A DNA stretch of 64,000 nucleotides from Saccharothrix ecbatanensis (GTDB lineage Bacteria > Actinomycetota > Actinomycetes > Mycobacteriales > Pseudonocardiaceae): contig NZ_JACHMO010000001.1 in the NCBI RefSeq assembly GCF_014205015.1, positions 8,556,001 through 8,620,000 of the forward strand. The letters are read 5' to 3'. Within the stretch, counting starts at the first letter, position 1; each line of letters starts with the position of its first letter. The notes beneath the pieces are model-generated. The model was not told the DNA's origin, searched no databases, and saw nothing but the letters and a program-made list of their open reading frames with translations. Shown piece by piece: positions 6,200 to 26,425 of this stretch. Made by a program: the position numbers and the translations under genes.

Positions 6200-7434
6200 G
6201 GCAGCTCCGTCCGGATCACTGTCGGCCCGCCGAGCGGGCTCACCACCACGACCACGCCGTCAATCGTCGCAGCACGGTCCGCGAGGCCCGCGAGGCCACC
6301 TCCCGGACGCACCTCGGCGCCGCCGCGGCCGTTGTCCGTGACCTCGACCACCACGGAGTTCTCCGTGCGGGTCACCTTGACGTGCGCCTCGGTCGCGCCG
6401 GCGTGCTTGGCGATGTTGGTCAGCGTCTCGGCGACGGTGAAGTACGCGGCGCTCTCCACGGCTGTCGGCGGGCGCGGCTCCACGTCCACGTCCACGGTCA
6501 CCGGGATCGGGCACCGCGCGGCCAGCGAGGACAGGGCCGGGTCGAGGCCGCGGTCGCCCAGCACCGACGGGTAGATGCCGCGGGCCAGGTCGCGCAGTTC
6601 GGAGATGGCCAGCTTGGCGTCGGCGTGCGCCTCTTCGATCAGGTCGCGGGCGGCGTCCGGGTCGGACTCCATCTTGCTGCGTGCCCGGCCGAGGCCCATG
6701 GCCACCGACACCAGGCGTTGCTGCGCGCCGTCGTGCAGGTCGCGTTCGATACGCCTGCGCTCCGCCTCGGCCGCTTCCACGCCCCTCGCACGGCTGGCGC
6801 TCAGCCGCTGCGTCTCGGCGGACAGCACGCTGTTGCGGGACGGGCCGAGCATGGCCCGTGCGAACCCCGCGTGGCCCCTGGCCATGACCTTGAGCAGTCG
6901 GTACGCGATGACGCCGAGCAGCAGGCCCAGCACGCTCACCGGGAGGGCCTTGACGAACGAGTCGATCAGCCACACGTTGCCTTCGCCGAAGTCGACTTCC
7001 CACGTGGCGGGCAGCGTGTGCACGTAGAACGGCAGGAACACGGTGGCCAGGACGGTGGACCACAGCGTCACCGTGAGTGAGAACTCGATCACGCCCAAGG
7101 GCAGCATCAGGAGCCAGTAGGACAGGTCGCGCCACGTCGCCGGGTCTTTCACCAGCGCTTTCGCTCGACCGCCCAGCCCGTCCGGCAGCGGCCGGTAGGG
7201 CGACGGGATGTCGACACCCAGCGTGACGCCCAGCCACGCCCGTTCGGCGCTCGCCGCCGCTCGTGCCAGGACCATCGTCAGCACGCCCAATGGCACGCCG
7301 ACCCAGATCACCGCGGTGCCGAGGCTGACCGCGCCCAGGGTCACCAGCAGGACGAACCAGAAGATCCCGGTGACCAGGTTGATCAGGAAGTACCCGCTGA
7401 TCCGGGCGATGTCCGGGTTGACCCGCGTCGTCAT
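6187..7434 (-). CDS. NarL-type sensor histidine kinase (HisKA_3)
   Basis: The protein has 415 residues. Its N-terminal half holds several hydrophobic segments (about 15-65, 115-160 and 170-195), consistent with a membrane sensor domain that lacks an obvious extracytoplasmic ligand domain. The dimerisation/phosphoacceptor motif is RRIERDLHDGAQQRL, followed by a HATPase domain with N-box (ETLTNIAKHA) and G-box (VTDNGRGG). I prefer the ATG at 7434 because a GGTGGGG ribosome binding site precedes it; an ATG at 7470 is possible. It pairs with the response regulator downstream. Confidence 0.9.
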   Translation of the reverse strand: MTTRVNPDIARISGYFLINLVTGIFWFVLLVTLGAVSLGTAVIWVGVPLGVLTMVLARAAASAERAWLGVTLGVDIPSPYRPLPDGLGGRAKALVKDPATWRDLSYWLLMLPLGVIEFSLTVTLWSTVLATVFLPFYVHTLPATWEVDFGEGNVWLIDSFVKALPVSVLGLLLGVIAYRLLKVMARGHAGFARAMLGPSRNSVLSAETQRLSASRARGVEAAEAERRRIERDLHDGAQQRLVSVAMGLGRARSKMESDPDAARDLIEEAHADAKLAISELRDLARGIYPSVLGDRGLDPALSSLAARCPIPVTVDVDVEPRPPTAVESAAYFTVAETLTNIAKHAGATEAHVKVTRTENSVVVEVTDNGRGGAEVRPGGGLAGLADRAATIDGVVVVVSPLGGPTVIRTELPCAW

Positions 7435-7547
7435 GTTCCCCACCTTCAGGCTGATGTACCGGCCCAGCATCGCCCGTCCGGGTGGCCGGAAACCATCAGG
7501 TACGCCGGTCAGCGGGGGGTGGGGACAGCCCTACCAACCTAATGGGA

Positions 7548-7576
7548 ATGAACCGGGGTGCGCGGGGCGTTATGCT
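7548..7576 (+). promoter_or_regulatory. Promoter of ssrA
   Basis: ATGAAC (7548-7553) and TATGCT (7571-7576) are separated by 17 bp. The mature tmRNA 5' end lies 23 bases further, leaving room for a short leader removed by RNase P. Confidence 0.55.
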
Positions 7577-7599
7577 GTGCGCAGCAAGACCCACGACAC

Positions 7600-7969
7600 G
7601 GGGGTGAACGGTTTCGACTTTGTGCGTTGATTCAAGGGAAGCGTGCCGGTGCAGGCGAGAGACCACCGTAAGCGTCATCGCAAACCAATAAGCGCCGAGT
7701 CTAACGACCAGCGCGCGTTCGCCCTCGCCGCCTGAGGCTAGGAGCAACGCTGTCGGCCCGGAGGCGCCTCCGCTCCGGTCGCCGGCATCAGCTAGGAGGC
7801 TCACCGCCGTCCCCGGCCACGGGGAACGGTTGGGACACTCACAGTGGCTGGGCTCATCACGATGACTTGTCTGCGTGATCATCGGGGCCGAGTAGAGGTG
7901 TAGCAGACTGCGCACGGAGAAGCCTTGATGATGCGGCAGAGGACCCGGGTTCGATTCCCGGCACCTCCA
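7600..7969 (+). ncRNA. ssrA: Transfer-messenger RNA (tmRNA)
   Basis: tmRNA tags and releases nascent chains from stalled ribosomes together with SmpB. The acceptor arms GGGGGTG (7600-7606) and CACCTCC (7962-7968) pair, with a discriminator A at 7969 and no encoded CCA; the conserved start GTGAACGGTTTCGACT and the T-arm GGTTCGATTCC are both present. The resume codon is GCC at 7694, preceded by ATAAGC as in other actinobacterial tmRNAs, and the tag reading frame ends with TGA at 7733-7735. The encoded tag is AESNDQRAFALAA, ending in the ALAA degron. Confidence 0.95.
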
Positions 7970-7975
7970 CGGCCT

Positions 7976-8017
7976 CGGCCGACCCATGTTCGCGGAACGC
8001 GCGAACCGGGTCGGCCG
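7976..8017 (+). terminator. Hairpin downstream of ssrA
   Basis: Arms CGGCCGACCC (7976-7985) and GGGTCGGCCG (8008-8017) form a perfect 10-bp stem that starts 6 bases after the tmRNA. The T content after it is low, as is usual in actinobacteria. The following 120 bases up to the next gene show only GC-rich filler. Confidence 0.75.
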
Positions 8018-8138
8018 TCGTGGTTTGTGGGGGGTGCGATCCCCACGCCCCGCCCGGCGGGCTCCGCCCCCGGACCCCCGTCCGTACGTGGTTGCGTTGA
8101 GCGGTTTCCGGCGGTTGCCCTACTCGTAGGTGGTCGGG

Positions 8139-8750
8139 TCAGCGGCGGTCGAGGTAGTCCTTGATCAGGGTGGCTACCAGGGTCGGGTTTTCGAAGGCTG
8201 CGGCGTGTGAGGTGTCCATGCGGACCACTTCGATGTTGGGCGGCAGGGTGGGCAGGTCTCGGAGCAGGCCTTCGTGGTACTGCTCGAACAGGGTTTGGCC
8301 TGGCATGGGTTTCGTGGCGACGGCCAGCAGCATCGGGCAGCGGACGTCGTGGAAGACCTTGAAGCAGTCGAGTTCTTCGATCGCCTGTTGGAGTTCCGGT
8401 TGGCCGAAGCCCTGGAAGAGTTCGCGCAGGGCGATGATGTCGTCGGCCACCGCGGTCGGGTCCAGGTAGCGCTGGGGCTGGGTGGGGACGCCGTGGCCGT
8501 CGATGTCGATCACCGCCGGGCATTCCGGGTGACGTCTGCCCCACAACGCCGCGACCATGCCGCCCAGCGACATGCCGAGCACGGCCGGGTTGTCGGTGGC
8601 GTGTGGTTCGATCCGGTCCAGGACGGAGTCCCAGTCCCACGGGGCTTCGAGCGTCAGCGGGACGATCTCGTGGGCGCCGTCGAGGGCGCTGATCACCGGG
8701 TCCCAGTCGGCCGGTGAACCACCCGCGCCGTGCAGTGCCAACACCTTCAT
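8139..8750 (-). CDS. Alpha/beta hydrolase
   Basis: The 203-residue protein has the core of an alpha/beta-hydrolase fold: the oxyanion-hole segment LHGAGGSPADW at residues 5-15, the nucleophile elbow GMSLGG near residue 62, and a late histidine in DTSHAAAFENP that fits the catalytic base. The substrate is unknown. The ATG at 8750 overlaps the stop of the preceding gene in an ATGA motif, so it is translationally coupled to the DNA-binding protein and should share its regulation. Confidence 0.85.
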   Translation of the reverse strand: MKVLALHGAGGSPADWDPVISALDGAHEIVPLTLEAPWDWDSVLDRIEPHATDNPAVLGMSLGGMVAALWGRRHPECPAVIDIDGHGVPTQPQRYLDPTAVADDIIALRELFQGFGQPELQQAIEELDCFKVFHDVRCPMLLAVATKPMPGQTLFEQYHEGLLRDLPTLPPNIEVVRMDTSHAAAFENPTLVATLIKDYLDRR

Positions 8751-9172
8751 GTCGTCAACCTCGCCCTCACCGAGTCGACGGTCACGCCGCCGCCGTCCGC
8801 GTTCCGCTCCAACTTCCCGCGCCGCACGAGGTCGTGGACGCCCTGCTTGGTGACGCCGAGCATCGCGCCGGCCACCGAGTACGACACCGCCCGCGTCGCC
8901 GGGTGCCCCATCCGCCGCGCCACGACCTGGCCCAACGGCGTGCGCCACCACTCGGCGGGCGGGTCGAACGGCGCGTCACCGGGGTAGAGCGCGCCGACGA
9001 GTCTTGCGATGGCGTGCACGGCCGCCGCGTCGTCGTCCCCCTGCATGGCCGCCGCCAACTGGTGGGCCACCTCGTCGGCGCGGGACGGCAGGTCGCCGAC
9101 GTCGTCGAAGAGGATCTCCAACGGGTCGAGCAGTCGGGTGCGGATGATCGTGGCGATCTGTTCTGCGAGCAC
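8747..9172 (-). CDS. HTH DNA-binding protein, probable autoregulator
   Basis: The 141-residue protein has a helical N-terminal part and a C-terminal helix-turn-helix of MerR/excisionase style (VAGAMLGVTKQGVHDLVRRGKLE, then VTVDSVRARL). Several upstream codons are open in frame, but the AAGGAGG at 9181-9187 is spaced 8 bases from the GTG at 9172, which decides the start. Two perfect palindromes lie immediately upstream, so it probably represses its own operon, including the alpha/beta hydrolase. I do not recognise the family by name. Confidence 0.72.
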   Translation of the reverse strand: MLAEQIATIIRTRLLDPLEILFDDVGDLPSRADEVAHQLAAAMQGDDDAAAVHAIARLVGALYPGDAPFDPPAEWWRTPLGQVVARRMGHPATRAVSYSVAGAMLGVTKQGVHDLVRRGKLERNADGGGVTVDSVRARLTT

Positions 9173-9184
9173 TCGCGCCACCTC

Positions 9185-9226
9185 CTTGACGGCTATCGTC
9201 AAGTACTTGACGCATGCCGTCAAGTA
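9185..9226 (-). promoter_or_regulatory. Twin palindromic operators
   Basis: Two perfect inverted repeats share the arms CTTGACG/CGTCAAG around 5-base centres: 9185-9203 (centre GCTAT) and 9206-9224 (centre CATGC). The second extends to 9-bp arms TACTTGACG/CGTCAAGTA at 9204-9226. Their centres are 21 bp apart, two helical turns. They occupy the gap between hrpB and the HTH gene and overlap the ribosome-binding region of the latter. Confidence 0.85.
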
Positions 9227-9227
9227 G

Positions 9228-11591
9228 CTAGCGGCGGGCGGGGCGCGCGGTCATCGGGTCCTCGGGCCAGCGGTGTTTGGGGTAGCGGCCCCGCAATTCG
9301 GACCTGACCTGCGGGTAGCCGGTCCGCCAGAACGACGCCAAGTCGCCCGTCACGGCGGTCGGCCTGCCCGCGGGGGACAGCAGGTGCAGGACGATCGGCA
9401 CCCGTCCATCGGCCAACCGGGGCGTTTCGGTCCACCCGAAGACCTCCTGGACCTTCACCGGCAGCGCGGGCTCGGACCCCGAGTAGTCCACTCGGACGCG
9501 TGAACCCGAAGGCACCTCCAGCCGGTCCGGGGCGAGCTCGTCGAACCGGGCCGCGGCGGGCCATGGCAGCAACCGGCGGACGACCTGCTCGCCGCTGATC
9601 CGCGCCAAGTCCACCTTCCGGCGCGCGTCACCCACGTCCACGACGGCGAGCAGCGACTCGTCGTCCACCGCCGGCCACGGATCGCCGATCACGCGGTGCA
9701 GGAAGGCCATCCGCTCACGCGTGCGCAGACCGTCCGCATCCCACCGGAGCAGGCCCAGGCCCTCCGTGCGGAGGCCGTCCGTCAACGCCTGGCGGATCGC
9801 CTCGCGGTCGTGCAACGGCTTGCTGGACAACGTGATCGCGCCCAGCTTGCGCAGCCGGTTCGCCACCACGTCACCGTCCCACCGAACGTCGTCCTCCCAT
9901 GTCAGGAGGGATGCGGCGGCCTTGATGGCGAGTTCTTCGTCGGCCCGCACCGCCAACCTGATCCGACCGTGCGTGCGGCCCGGCTCCCGGTCGGCGATCG
10001 CCACTGCCAGCCACTCGGCGTCGGCCAGACCACTGCCCGGCGGCAGTTCCACGGCTGTGCCACCGGCCATCAGGTACAGCGGTGAACCGGGGGAACGCCT
10101 GCGCGCCAACCGTTCCGGGTACGCGAGGGCGACCACGAGTGCCGGGTCGGAGGCTTTCCTGGTCGGCGGGTCGTCGACCATCGCGGCCAGTCGGCGCACC
10201 TCGGGCGGGTCGGCGTCGCGGACCGCCAACTCGACGCCGGAGTTCGACCGGTCGTCGTCCAGCAGGGCCACCACCGATGCGGCTTGGCGTGCGCCTACGG
10301 CCGCCGCGCCGTCCAACAACGCCCGCGCCAGGCGGGGATGCAAGCCGAGGTTCGCCATTCGGCGGCCACGGTCGGTGGCGCTGCCGCTGTCATCCAACGC
10401 ACCCAGCGCCCGCAGCACCGTCCGGCCAGCGTCGAGCGCACCCGGCGGCGGGGCGTCCCACCAGCCAAGACCGGAACCGTCCGGCACGCCCCAGCACGCC
10501 AGTTCCAACGCCAGCCGGGTCAGGTCGGCGGTCCGGATCTCCGGCTCGGGGTAGCGGGGGAGCGTGCTGTGCTCGTGCGCGGGCCAGCACCGGTAGACGC
10601 GGCCAGGCGCCTCACGTCCCGCCCGGCCCGCGCGCTGGTCGGCGACGGCGGCACTGACGCGGACCGTGGCCAGGCCGGACAGCCCGCGCCGGTGGTCGAC
10701 GCGGGAGACGCGCGACAACCCCGAGTCCACCACCGCCCGCACACCCGGCACGGTCAGGCTCGACTCGGCGATCGCGGTGGACAGCACGACCCGTCGTCGT
10801 GCACCGGGCCGCAGCGCGTCGTCCTGCGCGGTGGTGGTGAGCCGACCGTGCAGCGGCAGCACGTCCACGTCGTTGCCGAGCAGCGCCGCGCACCGCCGGA
10901 TCTCCGCCACACCCGGCAGGAACGCCAGCACGTCACCGTCCACTTCGGACAACGCCTGGCGGATCGCGCGGGCCACGGTGTTCTCGACCCGTTCACGGCG
11001 CACCGCCGGGATGTGCGCGATGTCCACCGGGAACGTCCGCGCCTCCACCCGGATCACCGGCGCGTCACCGAGGAGCTGCGCCAACCGGTCGGCCGCGACC
11101 GTCGCCGAGGTGGCCAGCAGCTTCAGGTCCGGCCGCAGCCCGGCCCGTGCGTCGAGCAGCAACGCCAGCAGCAGGTCCGCGTCCAGGTGCCGTTCGTGGC
11201 ACTCGTCCAGCAGCACCGTGCCGACGCCCGCCAGCTCCGGATCGTGCTGCAACCGCCGCACCAGCAGACCGGACGTGACGACCTCGATGCGGGTGTTCTT
11301 CGACGTCTTCCGGTCTCCCCGCACCGAATAGCCCACGGTCTGGCCGACCGGTTCGCCGAGCAGGCTCGCCATCCGTGCGGCGGCGGCACGTGCGGCGAGG
11401 CGACGTGGTTCGGCCACCACGACGCGACCGTCCAGTGCCAACGGCACCAACGTCGTCTTGCCGGTGCCCGGTGGCGCGACCAGCACCGCCGAGCCGTGTG
11501 CCGTCAGCGTGTCCGCGATCTCGCCGAGCACCGGTCGGATCGGGAGGTCCGGAAGCTCCGGCAGGTCCGAGGTGAGCCAGTGTCGTCCCAT
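9228..11591 (-). CDS. hrpB: ATP-dependent helicase HrpB (DEAH-type)
   Basis: HrpB is a DEAH/RHA helicase of unclear cellular role. The 787-residue product shows Walker A APPGTGKT, the variant box DECH in LLDECHERHLD, SAT in LLATSAT, and the C-terminal helicase motif QRAGRAGR. The HrpB-specific C-terminal domain is present with the typical tail ending in KHRWPEDP. The ATG at 11591 removes upstream codons of non-protein character. It diverges from the glycosyltransferase gene with only 22 bases between the two starts, where CCATTG/CAATGG forms a small palindrome (11601-11617). Confidence 0.94.
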   Translation of the reverse strand: MGRHWLTSDLPELPDLPIRPVLGEIADTLTAHGSAVLVAPPGTGKTTLVPLALDGRVVVAEPRRLAARAAAARMASLLGEPVGQTVGYSVRGDRKTSKNTRIEVVTSGLLVRRLQHDPELAGVGTVLLDECHERHLDADLLLALLLDARAGLRPDLKLLATSATVAADRLAQLLGDAPVIRVEARTFPVDIAHIPAVRRERVENTVARAIRQALSEVDGDVLAFLPGVAEIRRCAALLGNDVDVLPLHGRLTTTAQDDALRPGARRRVVLSTAIAESSLTVPGVRAVVDSGLSRVSRVDHRRGLSGLATVRVSAAVADQRAGRAGREAPGRVYRCWPAHEHSTLPRYPEPEIRTADLTRLALELACWGVPDGSGLGWWDAPPPGALDAGRTVLRALGALDDSGSATDRGRRMANLGLHPRLARALLDGAAAVGARQAASVVALLDDDRSNSGVELAVRDADPPEVRRLAAMVDDPPTRKASDPALVVALAYPERLARRRSPGSPLYLMAGGTAVELPPGSGLADAEWLAVAIADREPGRTHGRIRLAVRADEELAIKAAASLLTWEDDVRWDGDVVANRLRKLGAITLSSKPLHDREAIRQALTDGLRTEGLGLLRWDADGLRTRERMAFLHRVIGDPWPAVDDESLLAVVDVGDARRKVDLARISGEQVVRRLLPWPAAARFDELAPDRLEVPSGSRVRVDYSGSEPALPVKVQEVFGWTETPRLADGRVPIVLHLLSPAGRPTAVTGDLASFWRTGYPQVRSELRGRYPKHRWPEDPMTARPARR

Positions 11592-15844: not shown

Positions 15845-15917
15845 GGGGCTGTGGCGCAGCTGGTAGCGCATCACACTGGCAGTGTGAGGGTCAGGGGTTC
15901 GAGTCCCCTCAGCTCCA
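15845..15917 (+). tRNA. tRNA-Ala (GGC)
   Basis: The cloverleaf folds with anticodon GGC at 15878-15880 in the loop CTGGCAG, closed by TCACA/TGTGA. The acceptor stem GGGGCTG/CAGCTCC contains the G3:U70 wobble pair, the identity element of alanine tRNA. T-arm is GGTTCGAGTCC. CCA is not encoded. Foreign-looking genes begin directly downstream, so the tRNA may mark an island boundary, but I found no second copy of its 3' end. Confidence 0.95.
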
Positions 15918-15933
15918 CAATTGACACAGCATG

Positions 15934-17024: not shown

Positions 17025-18499
17025 ATCTTGCCGAAGAGGTGGATGCCAGGTGGCCGGTCGTAGCGGGTGCCTGTGTGGTGCGCGCGTTTGATCAGCTTGC
17101 TGCCGACGTTGCTGCGTTTGACCACGCGTGGGTAGGAGCGGTGGCGGCGGCCCCGGGCGCGTCGGTGTCGGATCTCCTCAAGCGTCTCGATGATCGCGTT
17201 CTTCAGGCGGTGAGGGGGAAAAACCCGCCTGGTTGGTGACCTGGCGGCGCACAGCGTTGAGACTTCGGACGAAGGACAACCCGTCGACGTCGAGCCCGTC
17301 GTCCGGACCGAGGCCCTCGGCGGCCTCCAACATCAACGCCCGCACCGCGTAGTGGGTCAGCAGCAACGCCCAGATCTCCTGCCGGACCAACTCCGGGGAC
17401 TTCGACCGCAGCACCCTGCCATGCGGCATCTGATGGGTCTCGATCTCGTCCAGGGTCAGCTCGAACTCCCACCGCTGCCGATACAGCACCGCCAACTCCA
17501 CCGCCGGCGCCACCTCGCGATCCATGATCGACACCACCAGGCGGATCATCTCGGGCTGCCCGCCGCGGTCGGTCACCGAGTACTCCACCACCCGCACCGG
17601 CAACCGCGACCCCTCCGGCGCCCGCGACCGCTTGCCCCGCTTCAGGTCCGCCTTGACCTTCGAGGGCAGCAGCTCACTGCGGTAGGACCCGTCGGGAAGC
17701 CACCCCAACACCGGCAGGTCCACATCGTCACGGACCCGCCACACCAATTGCGCCCCGCTCCGGCGCGCCCGCTGCCACAAGTCGTAGGAGAACACACCGC
17801 GATCGGCCAGCACCAGCATGTCCGGCTCGAACGCCGCCACCAACCGCTCGCACAAGCCGCGTTCCTGCACCCGCCAGGAATCCAACTCCGCCGCCACGAT
17901 CGCATGCGTGCCGCACTCGCCCAGCCCCATGATCCGCACCTGCGGAAACGGGCTCTGCCCGCCCTTGTGCGGCTTCTTGCCGAACTCGGCCACGTTGGCC
18001 GCCGTGTCGGGCAAGTCCAGCACGACACCGTCGACCGCCATCACCCGCCACCCGTGAAACCACGCCCCCCGCGTTCCGGCATGGGCCATCGGCACCGCCA
18101 CCCGGTCGAACAGCACCCGCAGCGGCGCCTCGCCCAACCGCCCCCGCGCCTGGGAGATCGCCCCCGTCGTGGGCACCGTCCACCCCTGCCGCCACGTGCC
18201 CAGAAACCGCAGACCGTCGACCAGCTTGCGCATCACCTCTTCGTAACCGTCATCGAAGAACAGGCACAGCGCCAGCACGTAGTAGACGACCACCCGCGCG
18301 GGCAGCAGACGCGACCGCCTCTCCCGACGCCCCGTTTCCGCGAGCACCTCGTCCACCAGATCCCGGTCGAACACACGGGCCAGCACACCGATGCTGATCC
18401 CATCGGTGAAACGGCGAGCAGACGGCACTGATCAACAGTACTGCCAACCAATCCACTCGCCTCAACCCGCACACCAAGGCCACTAACTAAGCGGCATTG
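17006..18499 (-). mobile_element. IS4-family insertion sequence, 1494 bp
   Basis: The element is bounded by perfect 19-bp terminal inverted repeats (17006-17024 and 18481-18499) and flanked by a 10-bp direct duplication TCGTCGACGT (16996-17005 and 18500-18509). A single IS4-type DDE transposase fills it. Length, repeat size and duplication size fit the IS4 family. The identical repeats and intact duplication suggest a recent insertion, although the transposase reading frame is broken near its end. Confidence 0.95.
17015..18428 (-). pseudogene. IS4-family transposase, frameshifted near the C-terminus
   Basis: The first 416 codons (18428 down to 17178) encode an IS4-type transposase: an N-terminal IS4 domain, then AVDGVVLDLPDT with the first catalytic aspartate, VLADRGVFSYDLW with the second, and YRQRWEFELTLDEIETH with the catalytic glutamate in the YREK-type region. 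At a T5C5 run (17214-17223) the frame shifts. In the neighbouring frame the expected basic C-terminus continues (RLKNAIIETLEEIRHRR to HLFGKITN) and stops at 17015-17017, inside the terminal inverted repeat. Removing one T restores one frame of about 470 residues. This may be a real mutation, a sequencing error in a homopolymer, or slippage. The GTG at 18428 is the assumed start. Confidence 0.85.
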
Positions 18500-19158: not shown

Positions 19159-19236
19159 TGGTGTGGGGTTTGGAGAAACCTTTTCGTCCAATTACGCGAT
19201 ACAGCCCTCGACAGCACAGCGAACGGGGTGGTCCAT

Positions 19237-21018
19237 ATGGGCGTCGAGGCCTTCGGTATCGAGAAGGAGTTCCTGAAGGACCTGCTCACCCAGGTGGACA
19301 AGGGGGAGGCGCAGCTCCCCGAGTTCCAGCGAGGGTGGGTCTGGCCCGACCGAAACATCGCCAGCTTGATCGCCTCGATCTCTCTGGGCTACCCGGCGGG
19401 CACTGTGATGATGTTGAAGCAGGGTGGCGACGTCCGCTTCAAGACCAGGTCCGTCGAAGGAGCGCCGCGAGCCAGCGCCGTGCTCGACCGGCTGATCCTG
19501 GACGGGCAGCAGCGGTTGACCTCGCTGTACCAGTCGCTGTTCCGCGACGCCCCGGTGGAAACCCACGACGTCCGCGGCAACACCACACGCGGCTGGTTCT
19601 ACATCGACATGGAGAAAACCCTTCTCGGCGACGGGGACCGTGAGGAGGCCGTGGTCTTCGTCCCCGAGACCAAGGTCCGCGTGGACTTCCGCGGGCAGGC
19701 CCTGTTGGACCTGTCCACGCCGGAGCAGGAGTTCACGCACCGCATGTTCCCGTGCACCGCTGTGTTCAGCTCGATGCAGTGGATGATGAGGTTCTTCCAG
19801 CACTCGCCCGAGCGCCAGTCCGAGAACCTGGCGCTGTGGAGCAGGTTCCACGAGGCCGTGGTCAAGCGGTTCGAGCAGTATCAGCTGCCGGTGATTGAGC
19901 TGGGCAAGAGCACGCCTCGCCAGGCGGTGTGCCAGGTCTTCGAGAAGGTCAACACTGGTGGCGTCACCCTGACCGTCTTCGAGTTGCTGACCGCCACCTT
20001 CGCGGCCGACGACTTCGACCTCCGCCAGGACTGGACCGACTGCCGGGCGCAGTGGGCCGGCAGCAAGTACGGCATCCTCTCTGAGGTCGCCAACACCGAC
20101 TTCCTGCAAGCGGTCACCCTGCTGGCTACGTACGAACGCCACCGGGCCGCCATCGAGACCGGTCGGGACGAAGCCACCGTCCCGCGCATCGGCTGCCGGC
20201 GGGCGGACATGCTCAACCTCACCCTCCCCGAGTACCGCAAGTGGGCGCCCGCGGTGACGGACGGCCTCAAGTCCGCCGCCCAGTTCCTGCACTCGCAGCA
20301 CATCTTCGACACCCGGTTCCTGCCCTACGGCAGCCAGCTCATTCCCATGTCCGCCATCTTCAGCCTGCTCGGCACCAAGGCCGAGACCGTCGGCGCGCGG
20401 CAGAAGATCTCGCGCTGGTACTGGTCCGGTGTGTTCGGGGAGCTCTACGGCGGCACGACCGAAACACGCTTCGCGCGCGACGTGCCCGAGGTCGTGGCCT
20501 GGGTGACCAGCCAAGGCGACGAACCCCGGACCGTCCATGAGGCCCAGTTTTTCTCCAGTCGCCTTTGGTCGCTGCGGACCCGCGGCTCCGCCGCCTACAA
20601 GGGCCTCTACGCACTGCTGCTCAAAGTAGGGCCGGTCGACTGGGGCACCGGGTCCGACATGTCCGACGAGAACTACTTCGACAACGCCGTCAACATCCAC
20701 CACGTGTTCCCCAAGGCGTGGTGCGAGAAGCAGGGGATCAGCCCCGCCGACTACAACTCCATCGTCAACAAGACGCCGCTGACCGCCCGCACCAACCGAA
20801 TCATCGGCGGGCGGGCACCTTCCGTGTACCTGCGCGGACTGGGCAAGACCGCGGACGCCACGCCTGAACAGGTCGACCGGAACGTGCAGTCGCATCTGAT
20901 CTCGGCCATCGACCTGCGCAACGACGACTTCGATGCCGCGATGAGGGCTCGACAGCGAGCTCTGCTCGCTGTCATCGGCGAAGCCATGGGTAAAGGCGCG
21001 CAGATCGACACCGAATAA
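19237..21018 (+). CDS. DUF262 and HNH nuclease, GmrSD/SspE-like
   Basis: The 593-residue protein has an N-terminal DUF262 domain: LPEFQRGWVWP near residue 28 and the ParB-like motif DGQQR at 89-93, which in this family binds or hydrolyses nucleotides. The C-terminal region has an HNH/DUF1524-like nuclease core with IHHVFPKAWC (H488, H489) and NSIVNKTPLT plus TNRIIGG. Single-chain DUF262-nuclease proteins act in type IV restriction (GmrSD) or with phosphorothioated DNA (SspE), where they cut DNA that has the wrong modification state. The ATG at 19237 fits the GGGGTGG ribosome site; a GTG at 19228 is possible. It heads a run of six genes on the same strand. Confidence 0.85.
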   Translation: MGVEAFGIEKEFLKDLLTQVDKGEAQLPEFQRGWVWPDRNIASLIASISLGYPAGTVMMLKQGGDVRFKTRSVEGAPRASAVLDRLILDGQQRLTSLYQSLFRDAPVETHDVRGNTTRGWFYIDMEKTLLGDGDREEAVVFVPETKVRVDFRGQALLDLSTPEQEFTHRMFPCTAVFSSMQWMMRFFQHSPERQSENLALWSRFHEAVVKRFEQYQLPVIELGKSTPRQAVCQVFEKVNTGGVTLTVFELLTATFAADDFDLRQDWTDCRAQWAGSKYGILSEVANTDFLQAVTLLATYERHRAAIETGRDEATVPRIGCRRADMLNLTLPEYRKWAPAVTDGLKSAAQFLHSQHIFDTRFLPYGSQLIPMSAIFSLLGTKAETVGARQKISRWYWSGVFGELYGGTTETRFARDVPEVVAWVTSQGDEPRTVHEAQFFSSRLWSLRTRGSAAYKGLYALLLKVGPVDWGTGSDMSDENYFDNAVNIHHVFPKAWCEKQGISPADYNSIVNKTPLTARTNRIIGGRAPSVYLRGLGKTADATPEQVDRNVQSHLISAIDLRNDDFDAAMRARQRALLAVIGEAMGKGAQIDTE

Positions 21019-21110
21019 TCGACTCGCTCGATCGTCTCGCCGTTCATCCTCCTCTGTCAGTGCGACTGAATTTCACCATCGGTCTGGCTAGCAATTGAAG
21101 GGCAACACCC

Positions 21111-22337
21111 ATGAACATGACCATGCCAACCAGCGCTGTCGAAGGAATCCGGCTGACGGTCACCCCGTTCCGTCCGGACGCGGTGATCGGCACGATGGGG
21201 TTGCCCACGCTCCTGCAACTCGTCCCCTCGCCGAAGACGGAGGAGGATGCCCGCGCGCTCAAGTACGCCTCGGGCGTCCTGCGCAGGCACGCAGAGGTGA
21301 GAGGCATGGTGCAGCGGATGTTGAAGGCCACCCAGAAGGGGCGCAACGTTACTTCCTACGCCTCCTACATCGCTTCCGGTGTGAACGGCGATCACGGCGC
21401 CGCCTGGTCCACCCCGCCGATCACGCTGTGGCTGGACGGCCAACCGGGCGCGATCGGCGATGAGCTCGTGCCGGGGACAGGGATCCGCACCATCACCGTC
21501 GCCGCGGGTTCACCGGTCGTCGCCATCGATGGGGAAACGCAGGTGACCGCCTGGCACGAGCTGTACGACGACCCGGCGCGCTTCGGCTGCGCCTACGAGA
21601 AGCTGGACGCGGTTCGCGTGCCGTTCGAGTTGTACTTCGGGCTGAGTGTCGAGGACGCACGGCAGATCTTCTACGACCGCAACGTCGAGGGCGTGCCGGT
21701 GGCCAAGAACCTGGCCATGTCCATGGATCAGCGAGACATCGGCACGCAACTCGCCCATCGCGTCGCCGAGGCCGTCAAGGTCGAGCACGAGGGCAAGATT
21801 GTGCCGTTCAGCAAGCTGGTGCAGGCGCGCAAGCGGCAGCTGACCAAGCTCGATCCAGAACTCGTCACCCTTTCCGCCCTGCGCGTGCTGGTGATCACCG
21901 CGTTGCACGGACGCGGGGGACTGGCGCTGTCCTCGTCGACCGTCCACGAGGACGACCTGCCCGGAGGAGTCACGGTCAGGCAAGCGGAAGAACAGCTCGT
22001 TCCACTCCTGTCTCGGGCCATCAGTGCCCTGTACCCGCACTTCGCCGCCAGGAGCGCCATCTCGGCGCCGGCTGTACTTGCAGGACTGGGGATCGCCGCC
22101 CACCAGGCCACCGGATGGGCCTCTTCGGGAAGGCTGCTGACAGCCGACGAACTCACCGAACTGCTGGAGTCCGTGCACTGGGAGCGCGAAGCACGCTACT
22201 GGGACGGTGTCGCCGCCAGTGCCAACGCCAGTGGAGTGCTCAACTTCGGTGGGGGCGCGAAGGACTCCGGCGGTCGTGTCGCAGACGCCCTTTTGCACCC
22301 CGACACCGAGTACGGGCGCAAGATCCGAGGCTGGTAA
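21111..22337 (+). CDS. DndB/DGQHR-domain-like protein
   Basis: The 408-residue protein resembles DndB and related DGQHR proteins: a beta-rich N-terminal half, a degenerate motif IDGETQVTAW at about residue 139 where the family has DGQHR, and the segment FYDRNVEGVPVAKNLAMSMDQRD, which matches the characteristic 'N-x-K-x-V-x-K' region of the family. DndB controls phosphorothioate modification genes; related proteins occur in other modification systems. No dndA, dndC, dndD or dndE gene is in the window. It starts 92 bases after the DUF262 gene. The assignment rests on motif similarity read by eye. Confidence 0.6.
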   Translation: MNMTMPTSAVEGIRLTVTPFRPDAVIGTMGLPTLLQLVPSPKTEEDARALKYASGVLRRHAEVRGMVQRMLKATQKGRNVTSYASYIASGVNGDHGAAWSTPPITLWLDGQPGAIGDELVPGTGIRTITVAAGSPVVAIDGETQVTAWHELYDDPARFGCAYEKLDAVRVPFELYFGLSVEDARQIFYDRNVEGVPVAKNLAMSMDQRDIGTQLAHRVAEAVKVEHEGKIVPFSKLVQARKRQLTKLDPELVTLSALRVLVITALHGRGGLALSSSTVHEDDLPGGVTVRQAEEQLVPLLSRAISALYPHFAARSAISAPAVLAGLGIAAHQATGWASSGRLLTADELTELLESVHWEREARYWDGVAASANASGVLNFGGGAKDSGGRVADALLHPDTEYGRKIRGW

Positions 22338-22493
22338 CCAACTGTCTGAACAAAACTTCTGCCGGAGGAGGGCGACGCGTTCGAACCGCCGCTTTGCGAC
22401 GGAGCCGACGTCGCCACGCCAGGGGGTGGATGTGCCAGGGAGGTGACATCGGCATCATGGGTGACCCTCGACCCCGCCTCAGGGAGCCTCATT

Positions 22494-23315
22494 GTGATCG
22501 TGTCCTCGGTGATGACCGACCATCCTTCTTGGCTGTCGGTTGGTGACGCCACCTACCGCGCCGTCCGTTCTGGACGCTCCTCCTGGGTGTTGATCTGCAC
22601 GTCCACCAGAACCGGTGATTGCCGAGCAGAGGCTCATCTCGTGTCCGGCGAGGGGGACGCCCCCGTGCTCGACGTCGTCGACCCCGCCGGGCTGACCGGT
22701 ACCGATGACGTGGTGGGTGTGCTGCGCGCCGCAGGCACGGTGGGACGTTGGCGCAACCCGGACTTGTGGGACGCCCTGGCGACGTCGATCGTCCGGCAGG
22801 TGATCCGAGCGGGTCAGGCCCGCAAGCTCTACCGGGCTTTCTGCGAGGCGCACGGCGAGGAAGTCGTCACGCCTCACGGGCCGGCGTGGTTGTTTCCGAC
22901 GCCGGAAGCCGTCCTGGCACTCCCGGACGACGAGTTCACCACCCTGGGGATGGCGTTCAAGCGCCGTCCACTGAAAGCCGCTGCCGAAGCAGTGCTGGAG
23001 TTCGGCTCGAAGTGGGCCGAGCTCGATCCGGCCGTGCTGCGGGACGAGGTGCAGAGCGTGCCCCGAATCGGCCCGTGGACCGCGGGTGCGACCGTCGCCG
23101 ACCTCACCAACGACTACTCGCTGTACCCGTACGCCGATCTTGCGGTGCGCACCTGGGCGAACCGCCTGTCGACCGGGCGAACCTGGCCCGAAACCGAACC
23201 GGAGTTCGCCCGCCGCTGGGCACGGTTGGCGGGGAAGGACCTGTCCGCCTGGACGCTGCTCACACTCGCATGGGGAGTACGTCATGCCAACACCTCAGGA
23301 GCCGTCGCCATCTGA
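22494..23315 (+). CDS. HhH-GPD superfamily DNA glycosylase-like protein
   Basis: The 273-residue protein has the helix-hairpin-helix-GPD signature in its C-terminal half: VPRIGPWTAGATVADLTNDYSLYPYADLAVRTW, in which IGPWTAG is the hairpin and the aspartate of YPYADLAV is the expected catalytic residue (AlkA/3-methyladenine glycosylase branch). The N-terminal half would be the AlkA-like beta domain. It would flip out and excise a modified or damaged base. The GTG at 22494 is supported by AGGGAG seven bases upstream; GTG 22443 and ATG 22512 are alternatives. Its end overlaps the radical SAM gene by 32 bases, so the two are coupled. Confidence 0.8.
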   Translation: MIVSSVMTDHPSWLSVGDATYRAVRSGRSSWVLICTSTRTGDCRAEAHLVSGEGDAPVLDVVDPAGLTGTDDVVGVLRAAGTVGRWRNPDLWDALATSIVRQVIRAGQARKLYRAFCEAHGEEVVTPHGPAWLFPTPEAVLALPDDEFTTLGMAFKRRPLKAAAEAVLEFGSKWAELDPAVLRDEVQSVPRIGPWTAGATVADLTNDYSLYPYADLAVRTWANRLSTGRTWPETEPEFARRWARLAGKDLSAWTLLTLAWGVRHANTSGAVAI

Positions 23316-24768
23316 CCTACCCGCAGCACCGATCACCGGCGCAGACCTCCGGCACCCGCTGGACGCGCTCTTCGTCAACGCACCGCTGCGCGACTACGCC
23401 GAGCGCCCTCGCGTCAACGACTTCACCCTGCCTGTGCTCGGCATGGGCTACCTGGCCACCTACGCCGCCTCGCAGGGCTTCAACGTCGGCGTCTTGGACG
23501 CCGAGGCCCACGGCTTGGGCGTCGACCACACCATCGACATCGTCAACCAGGCCGCTCCGCGGTGGGTCGGCTTCAACCTGCTCGCCCCGACCTACCAGGT
23601 CAGCGCCCGCATCGCCGCCGCCCTCGACCCGGCCATCAACGTCATGCTGGGTGGCCATCAGGCCAAGGCGATGCCCGTCGCCATCCTCACCGACCCGCGC
23701 ATGTCACGCTGCGAGGCCCTCGTGCTCGGTGAAGGCGAGACTCGGGTGGCAGCCCTGCTGGCTGACCACCGATCGCGCACCGAACTGCCTGGCGTCATGT
23801 GGCTGGATCCGATCCTGAAGACCCCGGTCACCGGCGGCGTTCCCGGCAACTCCCACCACCTCGCGCCCGACGTCGACGCACTGCCCTTCGTCGACCGCCG
23901 CTACCTCACCCAGGACCCCCACTACAAGGCAGGTCGGTGGGAGGCCAACATGGTCGGCGCCCGCGGCTGCCCCTACGACTGCTCGTTCTGCGGTGCTGCG
24001 GTCTCCGCCAACCCCGACATCACCATCCGCACCCGCGACTCGCACAACATCATCGCCGAAATGCACCAGCTCCGGGACACCGGCGTGACCGCGTTCCGCT
24101 TCGTCGACGACCTGTTCCTCGGTGCGAGACGGGTGATCGACCACATGATGAGCACGTTCACCACCGAGCGCGTCGGGGACTGGGCGGTCTGGGACGCCAC
24201 CGGCCGGATCAACGTCCTGCACCGCGCGAGCGACGAGACCTTGGACATCCTCGCGCGCAACGGCCTGCGCGAAGTCGCCCTGGGCATCGAATCCGGCAGC
24301 GAACGCATGCTCACCCTGATCGACAAGCGCATCGACCCCGCCATGACCAAGACCGTCGTCTGCCGCCTGACCGAACGCGGCATCAACGTCAAGGGTTACT
24401 TCATCCTCGGCTTTCCCACCGAGACCCCGAGAGAGATCGCCGCCACCGTCCGCCTCGTGCGCGAACTGTGGGACCTCACCGACCCGCTACCGGGACGGTT
24501 CCGCGCCTCGGTCTTCGAGTACCGCCCCTACCCCGGCACGCCCGACTGGCACCGCCTCATGGCCACCGGCCGCTACACCGCCGACCAACTCCTCGACTAC
24601 AGCCCTGTCGACCTCACCGACGCCGGAGTCGACGAGTCCATGCGGGAACGCGACGAGTTCAACTTCTCGGTCAACGTTCAACTCTCCGAAGCGCCTATCG
24701 ACCATGTCCGCGCCCAGCTCGTCGCCCTGACCCGCGAACAGCACGCCCGAAAGGCCGCAGCGGCATGA
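23284..24768 (+). CDS. Cobalamin-binding-type radical SAM enzyme
   Basis: The protein has 494 residues. The N-terminal about 180 residues form a Rossmann-type domain like the B12-binding domain of class B radical SAM enzymes (DAEAHGLG, FNLLAPTY, MLGGHQAKAMP, LGEGE). The radical SAM cluster motif is C229-x3-C233-x2-C236 in GCPYDCSFC. The rest of the barrel is recognisable: FRFVDDLFL, LGIESGSERML, KGYFILGFPTET and YRPYPGTP. Enzymes of this type methylate unreactive carbons or do thioether and rearrangement chemistry. The neighbouring kinase and Nudix genes suggest a nucleoside or nucleotide substrate, which is inference. It overlaps the glycosylase gene by 32 bases and the kinase gene in an ATGA. 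Confidence 0.88.
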   Translation: MPTPQEPSPSDLPAAPITGADLRHPLDALFVNAPLRDYAERPRVNDFTLPVLGMGYLATYAASQGFNVGVLDAEAHGLGVDHTIDIVNQAAPRWVGFNLLAPTYQVSARIAAALDPAINVMLGGHQAKAMPVAILTDPRMSRCEALVLGEGETRVAALLADHRSRTELPGVMWLDPILKTPVTGGVPGNSHHLAPDVDALPFVDRRYLTQDPHYKAGRWEANMVGARGCPYDCSFCGAAVSANPDITIRTRDSHNIIAEMHQLRDTGVTAFRFVDDLFLGARRVIDHMMSTFTTERVGDWAVWDATGRINVLHRASDETLDILARNGLREVALGIESGSERMLTLIDKRIDPAMTKTVVCRLTERGINVKGYFILGFPTETPREIAATVRLVRELWDLTDPLPGRFRASVFEYRPYPGTPDWHRLMATGRYTADQLLDYSPVDLTDAGVDESMRERDEFNFSVNVQLSEAPIDHVRAQLVALTREQHARKAAAA

Positions 24769-25403
24769 CCGCCCACCGCGGTCTTTTCGTGACCATCGAC
24801 GGCCCAGGTGGCGCAGGCAAGAGCAGCACCACCAGGCTCCTGCACCACCGGCTCACCAGCCAGGGCTACGCCGTCCACACCACCACCGAGCCCTCCCACG
24901 ACCAACTCGGCGAGATCGCCCGCCACGGCACCGACACCTACTCCGGACACGCCCTCGCCTGCCTGGTGGCAGCCGACCGCTACCACCACCTGGCCACCGA
25001 GATCCGCCCACAACTCGCCGCGGGCAAGATCGTGCTGTGCGACCGCTACGTCGCCTCGTCCTACGTGCTGCAACGCATGGACGGCGTCCCGATCGACTTC
25101 ATCGAAGCCCTCAACGCCGCCGCCGACATCCCTGACGTTGCCGTCATCCTCACCGTCGACCCGAAAGTCACCGCCCGACGCATTCACGAGCGCGGCGCGC
25201 ACAGCCGCTTCGAAGCCGGCATCACCACCAGCCGGATGGAAGCCGAGCTGTACGCGGACACCACCCACCGCTTGACCCGACGCAACTACCCGATACTCGC
25301 GATCGATACGACGAAATGCGCAACAGAGCAGGTCGTTGACATGATCGTCCAACGAATTGCGCAACTGACGGCCAGTCCACCCGACGAATCACACACCGCG
25401 TAA
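24765..25403 (+). CDS. Thymidylate-kinase-like nucleotide kinase
   Basis: The 212-residue protein has the P-loop GPGGAGKSS at 13-21, the LID/substrate signature LCDRYVASSYVLQ (DRY motif of dTMP kinases) and the fold order of thymidylate kinase. It phosphorylates a deoxynucleoside monophosphate. The family's usual TEPG-like loop reads TTEPSHDQLG here. A chromosomal tmk for housekeeping is expected elsewhere, so a second copy embedded between a radical SAM enzyme and a Nudix hydrolase suggests a modified dNMP as substrate. Start ATG overlaps the radical SAM stop. Confidence 0.85.
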   Translation: MTAHRGLFVTIDGPGGAGKSSTTRLLHHRLTSQGYAVHTTTEPSHDQLGEIARHGTDTYSGHALACLVAADRYHHLATEIRPQLAAGKIVLCDRYVASSYVLQRMDGVPIDFIEALNAAADIPDVAVILTVDPKVTARRIHERGAHSRFEAGITTSRMEAELYADTTHRLTRRNYPILAIDTTKCATEQVVDMIVQRIAQLTASPPDESHTA

Positions 25404-25437
25404 GCTGCGCCGGGTCTCAAACCGCGTGAGCAGCTTA
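25401..25437 (+). other. Inverted repeat between kinase and Nudix genes
   Basis: TAAGCTGC (25401-25408, including the kinase stop) pairs with GCAGCTTA (25430-25437). The GAGG ribosome site of the Nudix gene begins two bases later. It may attenuate transcription or tune Nudix translation. Confidence 0.45.
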
Positions 25438-25446
25438 TGAGGACCC

Positions 25447-25902
25447 ATGGCCGACCGTCACCTGATCGATGTCCACGTCCTCCTCGTCCGCGACGACGAG
25501 GTCCTGCTCACCCGCCGCCGCGACACCAATCCGATCTTCGACGGCCTGTGGCACCTGCCCTCCGGCAAGCTCGACGCGGGGGAGTCGGTCCTCGACGCCG
25601 CGGTCCGCGAAGCCGAGGAAGAAGTCGGCGTCCACCTCGACCCCACCGACCTGCGCCTGGTCCACACCCTCCACGTCAACGGCTCGGGGCCCGAACCCCG
25701 CCTAGGTCTCTTCTTCGAAGCCCGCCGCTGGACCAGGACACCGACCAATCGCGAACCCGACAAGTGCTCCGCGGTCCGCTGGTTCCCCCTCAACGCCCTG
25801 CCCGACCGGCTTATCGACTACCCAGCCGCAGGCATCCACGCTTACCGCGCCGCGGCCACCTTCAGCACCCGTGGCTGGTCTCGGCAATCAGTAAAACTCT
25901 GA
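25447..25902 (+). CDS. Nudix hydrolase, MutT-like
   Basis: The 151-residue protein has a full Nudix box, GKLDAGESVLDAAVREAEEEVGV, near residues 40-62, with all metal-binding glutamates present. It should hydrolyse a nucleoside diphosphate linkage. It is the last gene of the same-strand cluster, 43 bases after the kinase, and could sanitise a modified or unwanted dNTP. The ATG at 25447 has GAGG seven bases upstream. Confidence 0.9.
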   Translation: MADRHLIDVHVLLVRDDEVLLTRRRDTNPIFDGLWHLPSGKLDAGESVLDAAVREAEEEVGVHLDPTDLRLVHTLHVNGSGPEPRLGLFFEARRWTRTPTNREPDKCSAVRWFPLNALPDRLIDYPAAGIHAYRAAATFSTRGWSRQSVKL

Positions 25903-25949: not shown

Positions 25950-25974
25950 GTGTCGGTCTGCTGTCAGCCGACAC
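25950..25974. terminator. Hairpin at the convergent Nudix / Imm1-like junction
   Basis: GTGTCGG (25950-25956) and CCGACAC (25968-25974) pair around an 11-base loop and overlap the stop of the minus-strand gene. Suitable as a bidirectional terminator. Confidence 0.4.
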
Positions 25975-26425
25975 ATATAGGGCGTTTGCCGGTTCGCATA
26001 AATTCGTGCAGGAGTTCGCGGAGCAGGCTCAATTGAAGGGTGGCTTCCTTGGGGAACTCCGTGTCTCTGTCGATGTAGAGCGTCACGTCACTGGGAACCC
26101 AGGTGTCTGTCTGCCGGGGCAGGGCGATCCATGCCGTGGTGTCGTCCGCGCCACTCGTCACCCCGGCCTCCAGGAAGTCTTTCGGCCCGAACAGGTGGAC
26201 GGCGCCCACGTGGTGCTGGGTATCGAGATCGAACTTGAGTTGGTGGTCGGGCAACCCTGGCAAGCCGATTGTTGGTCGAATCTCGGCGTACACCACGGTC
26301 GGGTGCGGCTGCGGATTGGCCAGGATTTCGGACAGGACGTCGTCGAGGGCGACTTCGGAGTCGACGGTGACCGGCTCGTCGGCGCGGTTGTCGCCGCTGA
26401 AGTAGTAGATGAGAAGACCGTGCAT
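25964..26425 (-). CDS. Imm1-like immunity protein
   Basis: The 153-residue protein resembles Imm1-family immunity proteins of polymorphic toxin systems by size and by its opening (LLIYYFSGDNRADEPVTVDSEVALDDVLSEIL), mid-region (KFDLDTQHHVGAVHLF) and acidic character. Imm1 proteins neutralise deaminase or nuclease toxins delivered by secretion systems. No toxin gene lies next to it, so it would be an orphan. The assignment is from overall resemblance and should be checked by profile search. Confidence 0.55.
   Translation of the reverse strand: MHGLLIYYFSGDNRADEPVTVDSEVALDDVLSEILANPQPHPTVVYAEIRPTIGLPGLPDHQLKFDLDTQHHVGAVHLFGPKDFLEAGVTSGADDTTAWIALPRQTDTWVPSDVTLYIDRDTEFPKEATLQLSLLRELLHEFMRTGKRPICVG

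Follow-up and report, generated by a model that had tools for sequence, protein, structure and literature searches.

The DNA analysed here is a stretch of 64,000 nucleotides of the Saccharothrix ecbatanensis genome (contig NZ_JACHMO010000001.1, positions 8,556,001 to 8,620,000), which is called the window, and its subject is a row of six genes that an earlier note, made from the sequence alone, had joined into one DNA-modification and restriction system. The six genes are real, and the observation that they lie tightly spaced on one strand was correct. The last four of them (22443-25902) constitute a conserved, coupled module with a patchy distribution in actinobacteria and encode the following proteins:

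22443..23315, plus strand: HhH-GPD DNA glycosylase (AlkA/OGG1 fold), with an inner ATG at 22512 and the codon of the catalytic Asp, assigned by family alignment, at 23136-23138
23284..24768, plus strand: cobalamin-type radical SAM enzyme, with the B12 domain at about 23425-23757 and the CxxxCxxC motif at 23968-23991
24765..25403, plus strand: thymidylate-kinase-like protein, with Val (24966-24968) and Leu (25068-25070) at altered pocket positions
25447..25902, plus strand: Nudix (MutT-like) hydrolase, occupying an exchangeable triphosphatase slot

We propose, with a probability of roughly 0.4, that this module makes an antimetabolite nucleotide, that its kinase activates the nucleotide and that the repair enzyme and the triphosphatase act as the antidote, most likely in a defence against phages. 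What the enzyme acts on and makes, whether the product is toxic, in which direction the pathway runs and whether it acts against phages are all parts of this proposal that we infer.

In a scan of named genomes, 80 loci were kept from 105 and, with broken copies included, glycosylase, kinase and Nudix genes were all found near the radical SAM gene in 54 of them. Glycosylase and kinase without Nudix were present in 20 loci, and the remaining ones had the glycosylase alone (3), glycosylase and Nudix (1) or none of the partners (2). Genes of the relatives were called with a GC-frame script which also chose their starts, whereas families of neighbouring genes were judged by eye. In these calls glycosylase and radical SAM genes overlap in 74 of 78 pairs, with one implausible overlap of 323 bases, and radical SAM and kinase genes share 4 bases in 54 of 65 pairs and 1 base in another 7, which means that the translational coupling seen by the earlier note in the window is kept in relatives. 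Eight loci, all from Nocardia, have the order kinase, glycosylase, radical SAM with a convergent Nudix gene, and the membership of the module is unchanged in them. The 80 loci come from Pseudonocardiaceae, Nocardia, Frankiaceae, Micromonosporaceae, Streptosporangiaceae, Thermomonosporaceae, Nocardiopsidaceae, Streptomycetaceae and others; a record labelled Melainabacteria falls among Pseudonocardiaceae on the radical SAM tree and is probably misbinned. Also, 397 genomes of the host's order were searched with the radical SAM protein and with the two proteins encoded upstream of the module, and radical SAM matches, fragments counted, were obtained in 18 of them. All 13 strong glycosylase matches in this order sample sit at radical SAM loci; four weaker ones near 1e-11 were taken for ordinary AlkA. 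A literature search in PMC, with most subscription papers outside its scope, found no description of this gene combination.

The HhH-GPD fold, compared by VIA-align, spans the whole glycosylase chain, and no Pfam match besides HhH-GPD was obtained at E values up to 1. The Asp motif D[ILM]AV is present in 78 of 78 family members and the catalytic Asp is invariant in all 60 of these that were aligned, which bears out the earlier assignment of an HhH-GPD glycosylase with a catalytic Asp. A distant relative from another genome (L263:6557-7498, genome G157; 31% identity) has lost the Asp motif, and no radical SAM gene was found in the 15 kb fetched around it. The radical SAM enzyme of the window possesses both the CxxxCxxC motif and a B12-binding domain, and the cysteine motif is found in 78 of its 80 relatives.

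The Nudix protein resembles MutT-type enzymes by sequence match. At the fourth position of the 80 loci there are 55 Nudix, 14 CYTH and 5 MazG-like proteins as well as 6 unassigned cases, some of them at contig ends, so that CYTH or MazG stands in for Nudix at 19 of the 25 loci that lack it. These identities were confirmed in Pfam for one example each (CYTH, 57 bits; MazG, 22.9 bits at a cut-off of 22), and at least seven changes are required by parsimony when the slot is mapped on a quick tree of the radical SAM proteins. CYTH, MazG and Nudix proteins are kinds of enzymes that hydrolyse nucleoside triphosphates, and on these family assignments unrelated enzymes of putative triphosphatase type have replaced one another at one position of the module. 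Since genes for a nucleotide kinase and a triphosphatase accompany that of the cobalamin radical SAM enzyme, the reaction of this enzyme probably belongs to nucleotide chemistry, and the 54 loci with all four genes agree with the earlier view that glycosylase, radical SAM, kinase and Nudix belong together in this sense.

The genome of S. ecbatanensis also holds a parallel module, which we call type II, the one in the window being type I:

L185 (G000:C1:1092000-1111000), 7402-10805, minus strand: type II module, with a SPASM-like radical SAM gene followed by genes for a kinase, an Exo_endo_phos protein and a Nudix protein

The type II kinase (L120) belongs to the same odd kinase family as that of the window, and the type II radical SAM protein has no B12 domain in Pfam. 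It was found in 12 of the 397 order genomes, and genes for the kinase and the Exo_endo_phos protein follow it in the same order in 12 of 12 loci, that is, in the host genome, in 10 of the further 11 that have it (G212 lies at a contig edge and was omitted) and on one of two plasmids. In these 12 loci the fourth slot is taken by Nudix (5), CYTH (6) or MazG (1, on the plasmid and by annotation), and the type II CYTH proteins are 51-61% identical to the CYTH protein of one type I locus (L086). For the Exo_endo_phos protein, 41 of 44 PDB matches are of the AP endonuclease/exonuclease III type, the best at 39 bits. The type II radical SAM protein matched the pVip model of PADLOC with 66 bits. However, an identity as viperin was rejected, as the NCBI viperin model, whose cut-off is 180, gave 48-51 bits for two of the four proteins tested and was outside the best 25 models for the other two, many other radical SAM families outscoring it. 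The best PDB match of this protein is BlsE with 49 bits, the others being generic ones of similar strength (SkfB etc.); BlsE functions in biosynthesis of the blasticidin S type.

A possible third version (type III) was encountered on a phage-like metagenomic contig that carries terminase and portal genes, where a kinase, a cobalamin radical SAM enzyme and a protein of the UDG superfamily (50 bits) are encoded in a row (L219:1872-4464). A protein of 343 amino acids without a Pfam match is encoded upstream of this row. The type III radical SAM protein is about 30% identical to that of the window and has 1,407 relatives at E values up to 1e-40, among which type I members may be included; taxa named among the best 120 of the 1,407 are Fusobacterium varium, Anaerobutyricum hallii, Lachnospiraceae and Oscillospiraceae. 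Searches for more type III loci found no further locus with kinase and UDG, one additional hit being a type I contig known from another search, and the Fusobacterium relative of the radical SAM protein gave no plasmid matches at 1e-70. Judged by the number of these relatives, the UDG-like version may be widespread.

Judged by protein family, the partner from base excision repair changes with the type of the radical SAM enzyme and is OGG1/AlkA-like in type I, APE1/ExoIII-like in type II and UDG-like in type III. As each radical SAM type has such a partner, it is simplest to suppose that what the radical SAM enzyme makes would have to be removed when it occurs in DNA. A different account, in which triphosphatase and glycosylase clean the nucleotide pool and the DNA of one specific kind of damage while radical SAM enzyme and kinase repair or recycle the damaged nucleotide, also agrees with the fact that all three partners belong to base excision repair. 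It would resemble the GO system, which consists of MutT and OGG1/MutY, in that a pool-cleaning Nudix protein of MutT type is paired with a glycosylase of the OGG1/AlkA fold. Unlike the GO system, however, the module is patchy and partly mobile, and a radical SAM enzyme and a kinase are coupled to these two enzymes. Presence in only 18 of 397 genomes, in 9 of them with a damaged radical SAM gene, and carriage by phages and plasmids are unlike housekeeping repair, and we consider this account quite unlikely.

The earlier note had favoured an actual modification of DNA, in which the radical SAM product would become a mark within the DNA of host or phage and the glycosylase would take out bases that were misplaced. 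Hypermodification of thymidine in phages uses similar enzymes, namely a kinase, a radical SAM enzyme and a protein of HhH type. When the families most often found beside the 80 loci were read by eye, however, neither a DNA-acting transferase nor a reader was recognised, and Pfam lists HhH-GPD only for the glycosylase. The alternation of glycosylase and APE1-like protein fits removal of a base and not its installation. A mark deliberately installed in host DNA suits the repair enzyme and the triphosphatase less well than an antidote does, and such a modification pathway appears improbable to us.

A further possibility is that the glycosylase excises modified bases from the DNA of invading phages, as Brig1 does, while the other enzymes handle related nucleotides. 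Two reports describe DNA glycosylases that can be antiviral (PMC11078745, PMC13160076), and the type III partner belongs to the UDG superfamily, as does Brig1. The module thus shares with Brig1 and Brig3 a DNA glycosylase in a possible phage defence. According to these reports, however, Brig1 needed no partner and Brig3 worked with a glucosyl hydrolase, so that a coupled radical SAM enzyme and kinase would not be needed, whereas the glycosylase of the module is of the HhH-GPD family and is part of a four-gene unit. The type II core, moreover, has an APE1-like protein and no glycosylase. Attack on phage DNA by base excision is a very improbable function of the module.

The kinase of the window obtained 108.3 bits with the dTMP kinase model TIGR00041 (cut-off 83.25). 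In canonical thymidylate kinases, a Tyr and a Phe residue contact base and sugar of the substrate, and both positions are altered in the module kinases. One alignment of the module kinases used 45 of 74 sequences. In the set of rows used for a kinase tree, the pocket Tyr, which is present in 3 of 3 canonical rows and in 3 PDB alignments, is replaced in 38 of 38 rows of module kinases: by Leu (21), Val (1) or Phe (1) in the 23 type I rows, by Leu in 14 of 14 type II rows and by Leu in type III. Phe (2) or Tyr (1) occupies the second position in the canonical rows, Val in type I kinases (23/23) and Cys, Ile, Leu or Val in type II kinases. The string AYQ occurs in none of the 74 module kinases, which is not a fair test, since the housekeeping Tmk of the same genome reads AAYG; this separate, canonical Tmk (L121) is kept beside the module kinases. 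The kinase tree took its type I rows from 22 of the 74 kinases and that of the window and had only three canonical rows, and in it two type I kinases from Nocardia nest with type II kinases (support 95/97), while the deep branches are long and unsure. This topology suggests that kinases have moved between module types and may act on related substrates.

Among 50,697 phage records, two carry the radical SAM gene, both of them of Streptomyces phage SF3, in which gp35-gp38 represent the whole module and lie beside an annotated integrase. The part of the SF3 paper that was available tabulates glycosylase, kinase and Nudix proteins and leaves gp36 unannotated, and no link among them was seen in that part (PMC5336643). 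The radical SAM gene is also present in 13 of 72,556 plasmid records, some of them from Streptomyces, and all four genes occur in order on 3 of 3 plasmids viewed. By coordinates, the kinase adjoins a radical SAM gene in 14 of 15 plasmid kinase records, type I accounting for 12 of these and type II for 2; the fifteenth, from Kitasatospora, with six places each of kinase and radical SAM, is outside the 14. On a plasmid of Streptomyces microflavus (L163), the type I module is flanked by a second radical SAM gene, whose product is 31% identical to the type II one over 136 amino acids, a methyltransferase gene, two ABC transporter genes and more Nudix genes, possibly forming an enlarged cluster. 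On viral contigs, some of which derive from bacterial genomes and may be misassigned, 15 kinase loci comprise 9 of type I, 2 of type II, 1 of type III and 3 without radical SAM. The glycosylase was seen in 8 of the 9 type I loci, the ninth being cut by a contig end, and of 44 proteins from four type I contigs three match integrase families and two match endolysin families. Integrases lie on L164, L167 and L169.

Carriage by an integrase-bearing phage fits a benefit inside the cell better than the making of a nucleoside for export, which has to be considered since the module could be a minimal biosynthetic cluster of a secreted natural product, with the triphosphatase aiding release and the repair enzyme providing self-resistance. 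Actinobacterial hosts and Streptomyces plasmids are in agreement with such a cluster, and so is BlsE as best PDB match of the type II radical SAM protein (49 bits), although generic matches are similarly strong. Oxetanocin A, too, needs a cobalamin radical SAM enzyme and a phosphohydrolase, and a title cited in the literature on it places the genes on a plasmid (PMC7074753). Among neighbour families read by eye, however, no transporter family is common to more than 6 of the 80 loci, and we regard secretion of a nucleoside as unlikely.

At the 18 loci of the order sample, an intact radical SAM gene is accompanied by the glycosylase in 9 cases, a broken radical SAM gene by a kept glycosylase in 4, and in 5 cases the radical SAM gene is damaged and the glycosylase gone, whereas an intact radical SAM gene without glycosylase was found in none. 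Among the 80 loci, the flagging of the glycosylase at two (L107 and L110) was an artefact of a 40% identity filter. The asymmetry leans in the direction expected when a poison is lost before its antidote and is suggestive only.

The proposal of a nucleotide poison made together with its antidote is put forward because of the recurring repair partners and the precedent of OxsB and AlsB. Prokaryotic viperins with or without a nucleotide kinase are both modelled in PADLOC, and those with one are comparable in that a radical SAM enzyme stands beside a nucleotide kinase and the product is presumably a nucleotide. Unlike viperins, the radical SAM enzyme of the window has a B12 domain and gave no match with pVip in PADLOC at E values up to 1, and the module adds a repair enzyme and a triphosphatase. 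OxsB and AlsB are cobalamin radical SAM enzymes which act on the deoxynucleotides dATP and dAMP, and the antiviral oxetanocin A arises through OxsB and the phosphohydrolase OxsA (PMC13331322, PMC7074753). The pairs OxsB-OxsA and AlsB-AlsA for oxetanocin A and albucidin share with the module the type of enzyme, a partner that hydrolyses phosphate (OxsA) and the toxic or antiviral nucleoside expected; unlike them, the module also contains a kinase for nucleotides and an enzyme of DNA repair.

In the mechanism that we envisage, the cobalamin radical SAM enzyme would modify a nucleotide, probably a deoxynucleoside monophosphate, which the altered thymidylate-kinase-like protein would phosphorylate, and a kinase of the host would complete the triphosphate. 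The odd triphosphate would act as a false substrate and thereby disturb DNA synthesis, an infecting phage being the most plausible target. From the cell's own DNA the glycosylase would cut the odd base, while the Nudix protein, or CYTH or MazG elsewhere, would destroy the odd triphosphate, so that both together might provide a built-in antidote. A nucleotide analogue made by a radical SAM enzyme is of a known kind; the new element would be the plan of the antidote and the parallel versions of the module.

Several observations weigh against this proposal. Among solved structures, those closest to the radical SAM enzyme are AprD4, the radical SAM protein 9ccb and TokK, and not OxsB, of which no chain appeared among the PDB matches at E values up to 0.01 nor by profile at 0.001, as far as database matches can tell. 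Support from PADLOC is non-specific: radical SAM enzyme and kinase match the A and B models of PDC-M51 with 22 and 46 bits only, and an identity with PDC-M51 was dropped, since the housekeeping Tmk obtains 44 bits on PDC-M51B; the 39 bits of the Nudix protein with PDC-S07 are no real support either. The radical SAM tree largely tracks bacterial families, and the commonest neighbours of the 80 loci look like XRE-type regulators and not like defence genes. Some radical SAM copies in the 80 loci lack a kinase, and orphan copies without glycosylase or kinase exist in Micromonospora, one of which (L100) keeps the cysteines while the other (L102) has lost the cysteine motif. Type III is based on a single locus. 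By the title of its description, SF3 is a virulent phage, so that a benefit to a lysogen would be conjectural (PMC5336643). Finally, the pattern of losses is weak, as in one genome (G377) only the kinase is damaged and the radical SAM gene is intact; in addition, the radical SAM gene is the longest, and some genomes are drafts in which errors are possible.

The two genes upstream of the module, which the earlier note had considered parts of the same system, are the following:

19228..21018, plus strand: DUF262/GmrSD_N protein, a neighbour rather than a conserved part
21111..22337, plus strand: DndB-like protein (DGQHR-type, with a degenerate DGETQ), a neighbour rather than a conserved part

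In the 397 order genomes, DUF262 relatives were found in 37 and the DndB-like protein in 8, and both coincide with the radical SAM protein in one genome only, that of the window. Radical SAM and DUF262 proteins likewise coincide in this genome alone, whereas radical SAM and DndB-like proteins also occur together in G331, about 729 kb apart. Within the fetched flanks of 80 other module loci a DUF262 gene was present at one and a DndB-like gene at none, and in six other DUF262-bearing genomes viewed neither a DndB-like nor a module gene adjoins the DUF262 gene. The DUF262 protein has a GmrSD_N domain (94.3 bits), Pfam listing no C-terminal nuclease domain, and matches the PADLOC models PDC-M55C (98 bits) and HEC-05 (58 bits). 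The DndB-like protein reached 19.4 bits with the DndB equivalog model, whose cut-off is 328, and is not a genuine DndB, in keeping with the earlier note. Homologues of it lie near genes for a type I methyltransferase and DISARM-like (DrmA/DrmD) helicases (L181, L182) or near a type II methyltransferase and an LmuB-like protein (L183). By these sequence comparisons, the DUF262 and DndB-like proteins are ordinary neighbours of defence type. The idea of the earlier note was that six codirectional, closely spaced genes form a modification-restriction system with a DUF262 nuclease as reader and a DndB-like regulator, and that the six families should be neighbours in other genomes; only the last four are, and the co-occurrence counts led to rejection of a six-gene unit. 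As DUF262 is near only 1 of 80 module loci, a mark read by a DUF262 nuclease has no conserved reader, and a functional system of all six genes is hardly credible.

Further upstream in the window there are:

17178..18428, minus strand: IS4-family transposase (NF033592, 226 bits)
15845..15918, plus strand: tRNA-Ala(ggc)

No direct repeat of the tRNA-Ala(ggc) was found between 15500 and 42000 and a tRNA-bounded island was consequently dropped as a candidate; four other sites of the genome that match part of the stretch with 79-81% identity are read as other, putative tRNA genes. A scan for promoters and terminators gave nothing above chance. Convergent with the Nudix gene, an Imm1-family immunity-like protein is encoded at 25964-26425 on the minus strand (43 bits), and a 37% identical Imm1-like relative is encoded near the parallel module (L185:12929-13408, minus strand). 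Two further proteins of the window (44086-45435 and 56445-57896, minus) have N-termini that by eye look TIR-like.

Taken more broadly, and with doubt prevailing, the module may belong to a class of nucleotide weapons borne by phages and plasmids, in which a radical SAM enzyme makes the poison, an altered kinase activates it and matched repair enzymes and clade-specific triphosphatases are the antidotes, at least three versions having arisen by exchange of the head enzyme on a shared kinase core. If this is true, bacteria and phages make nucleotide poisons together with tailored DNA-repair antidotes, which would extend the ideas developed for viperin and oxetanocin; new nucleotide-modifying radical SAM enzymes would become a source of nucleoside analogues, and the repair enzyme paired with each of them would predict the kind of lesion. 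Even if the module makes no poison, the tight coupling of a glycosylase of the OGG1 fold with a cobalamin radical SAM enzyme in many actinobacterial families represents unexplained biochemistry.

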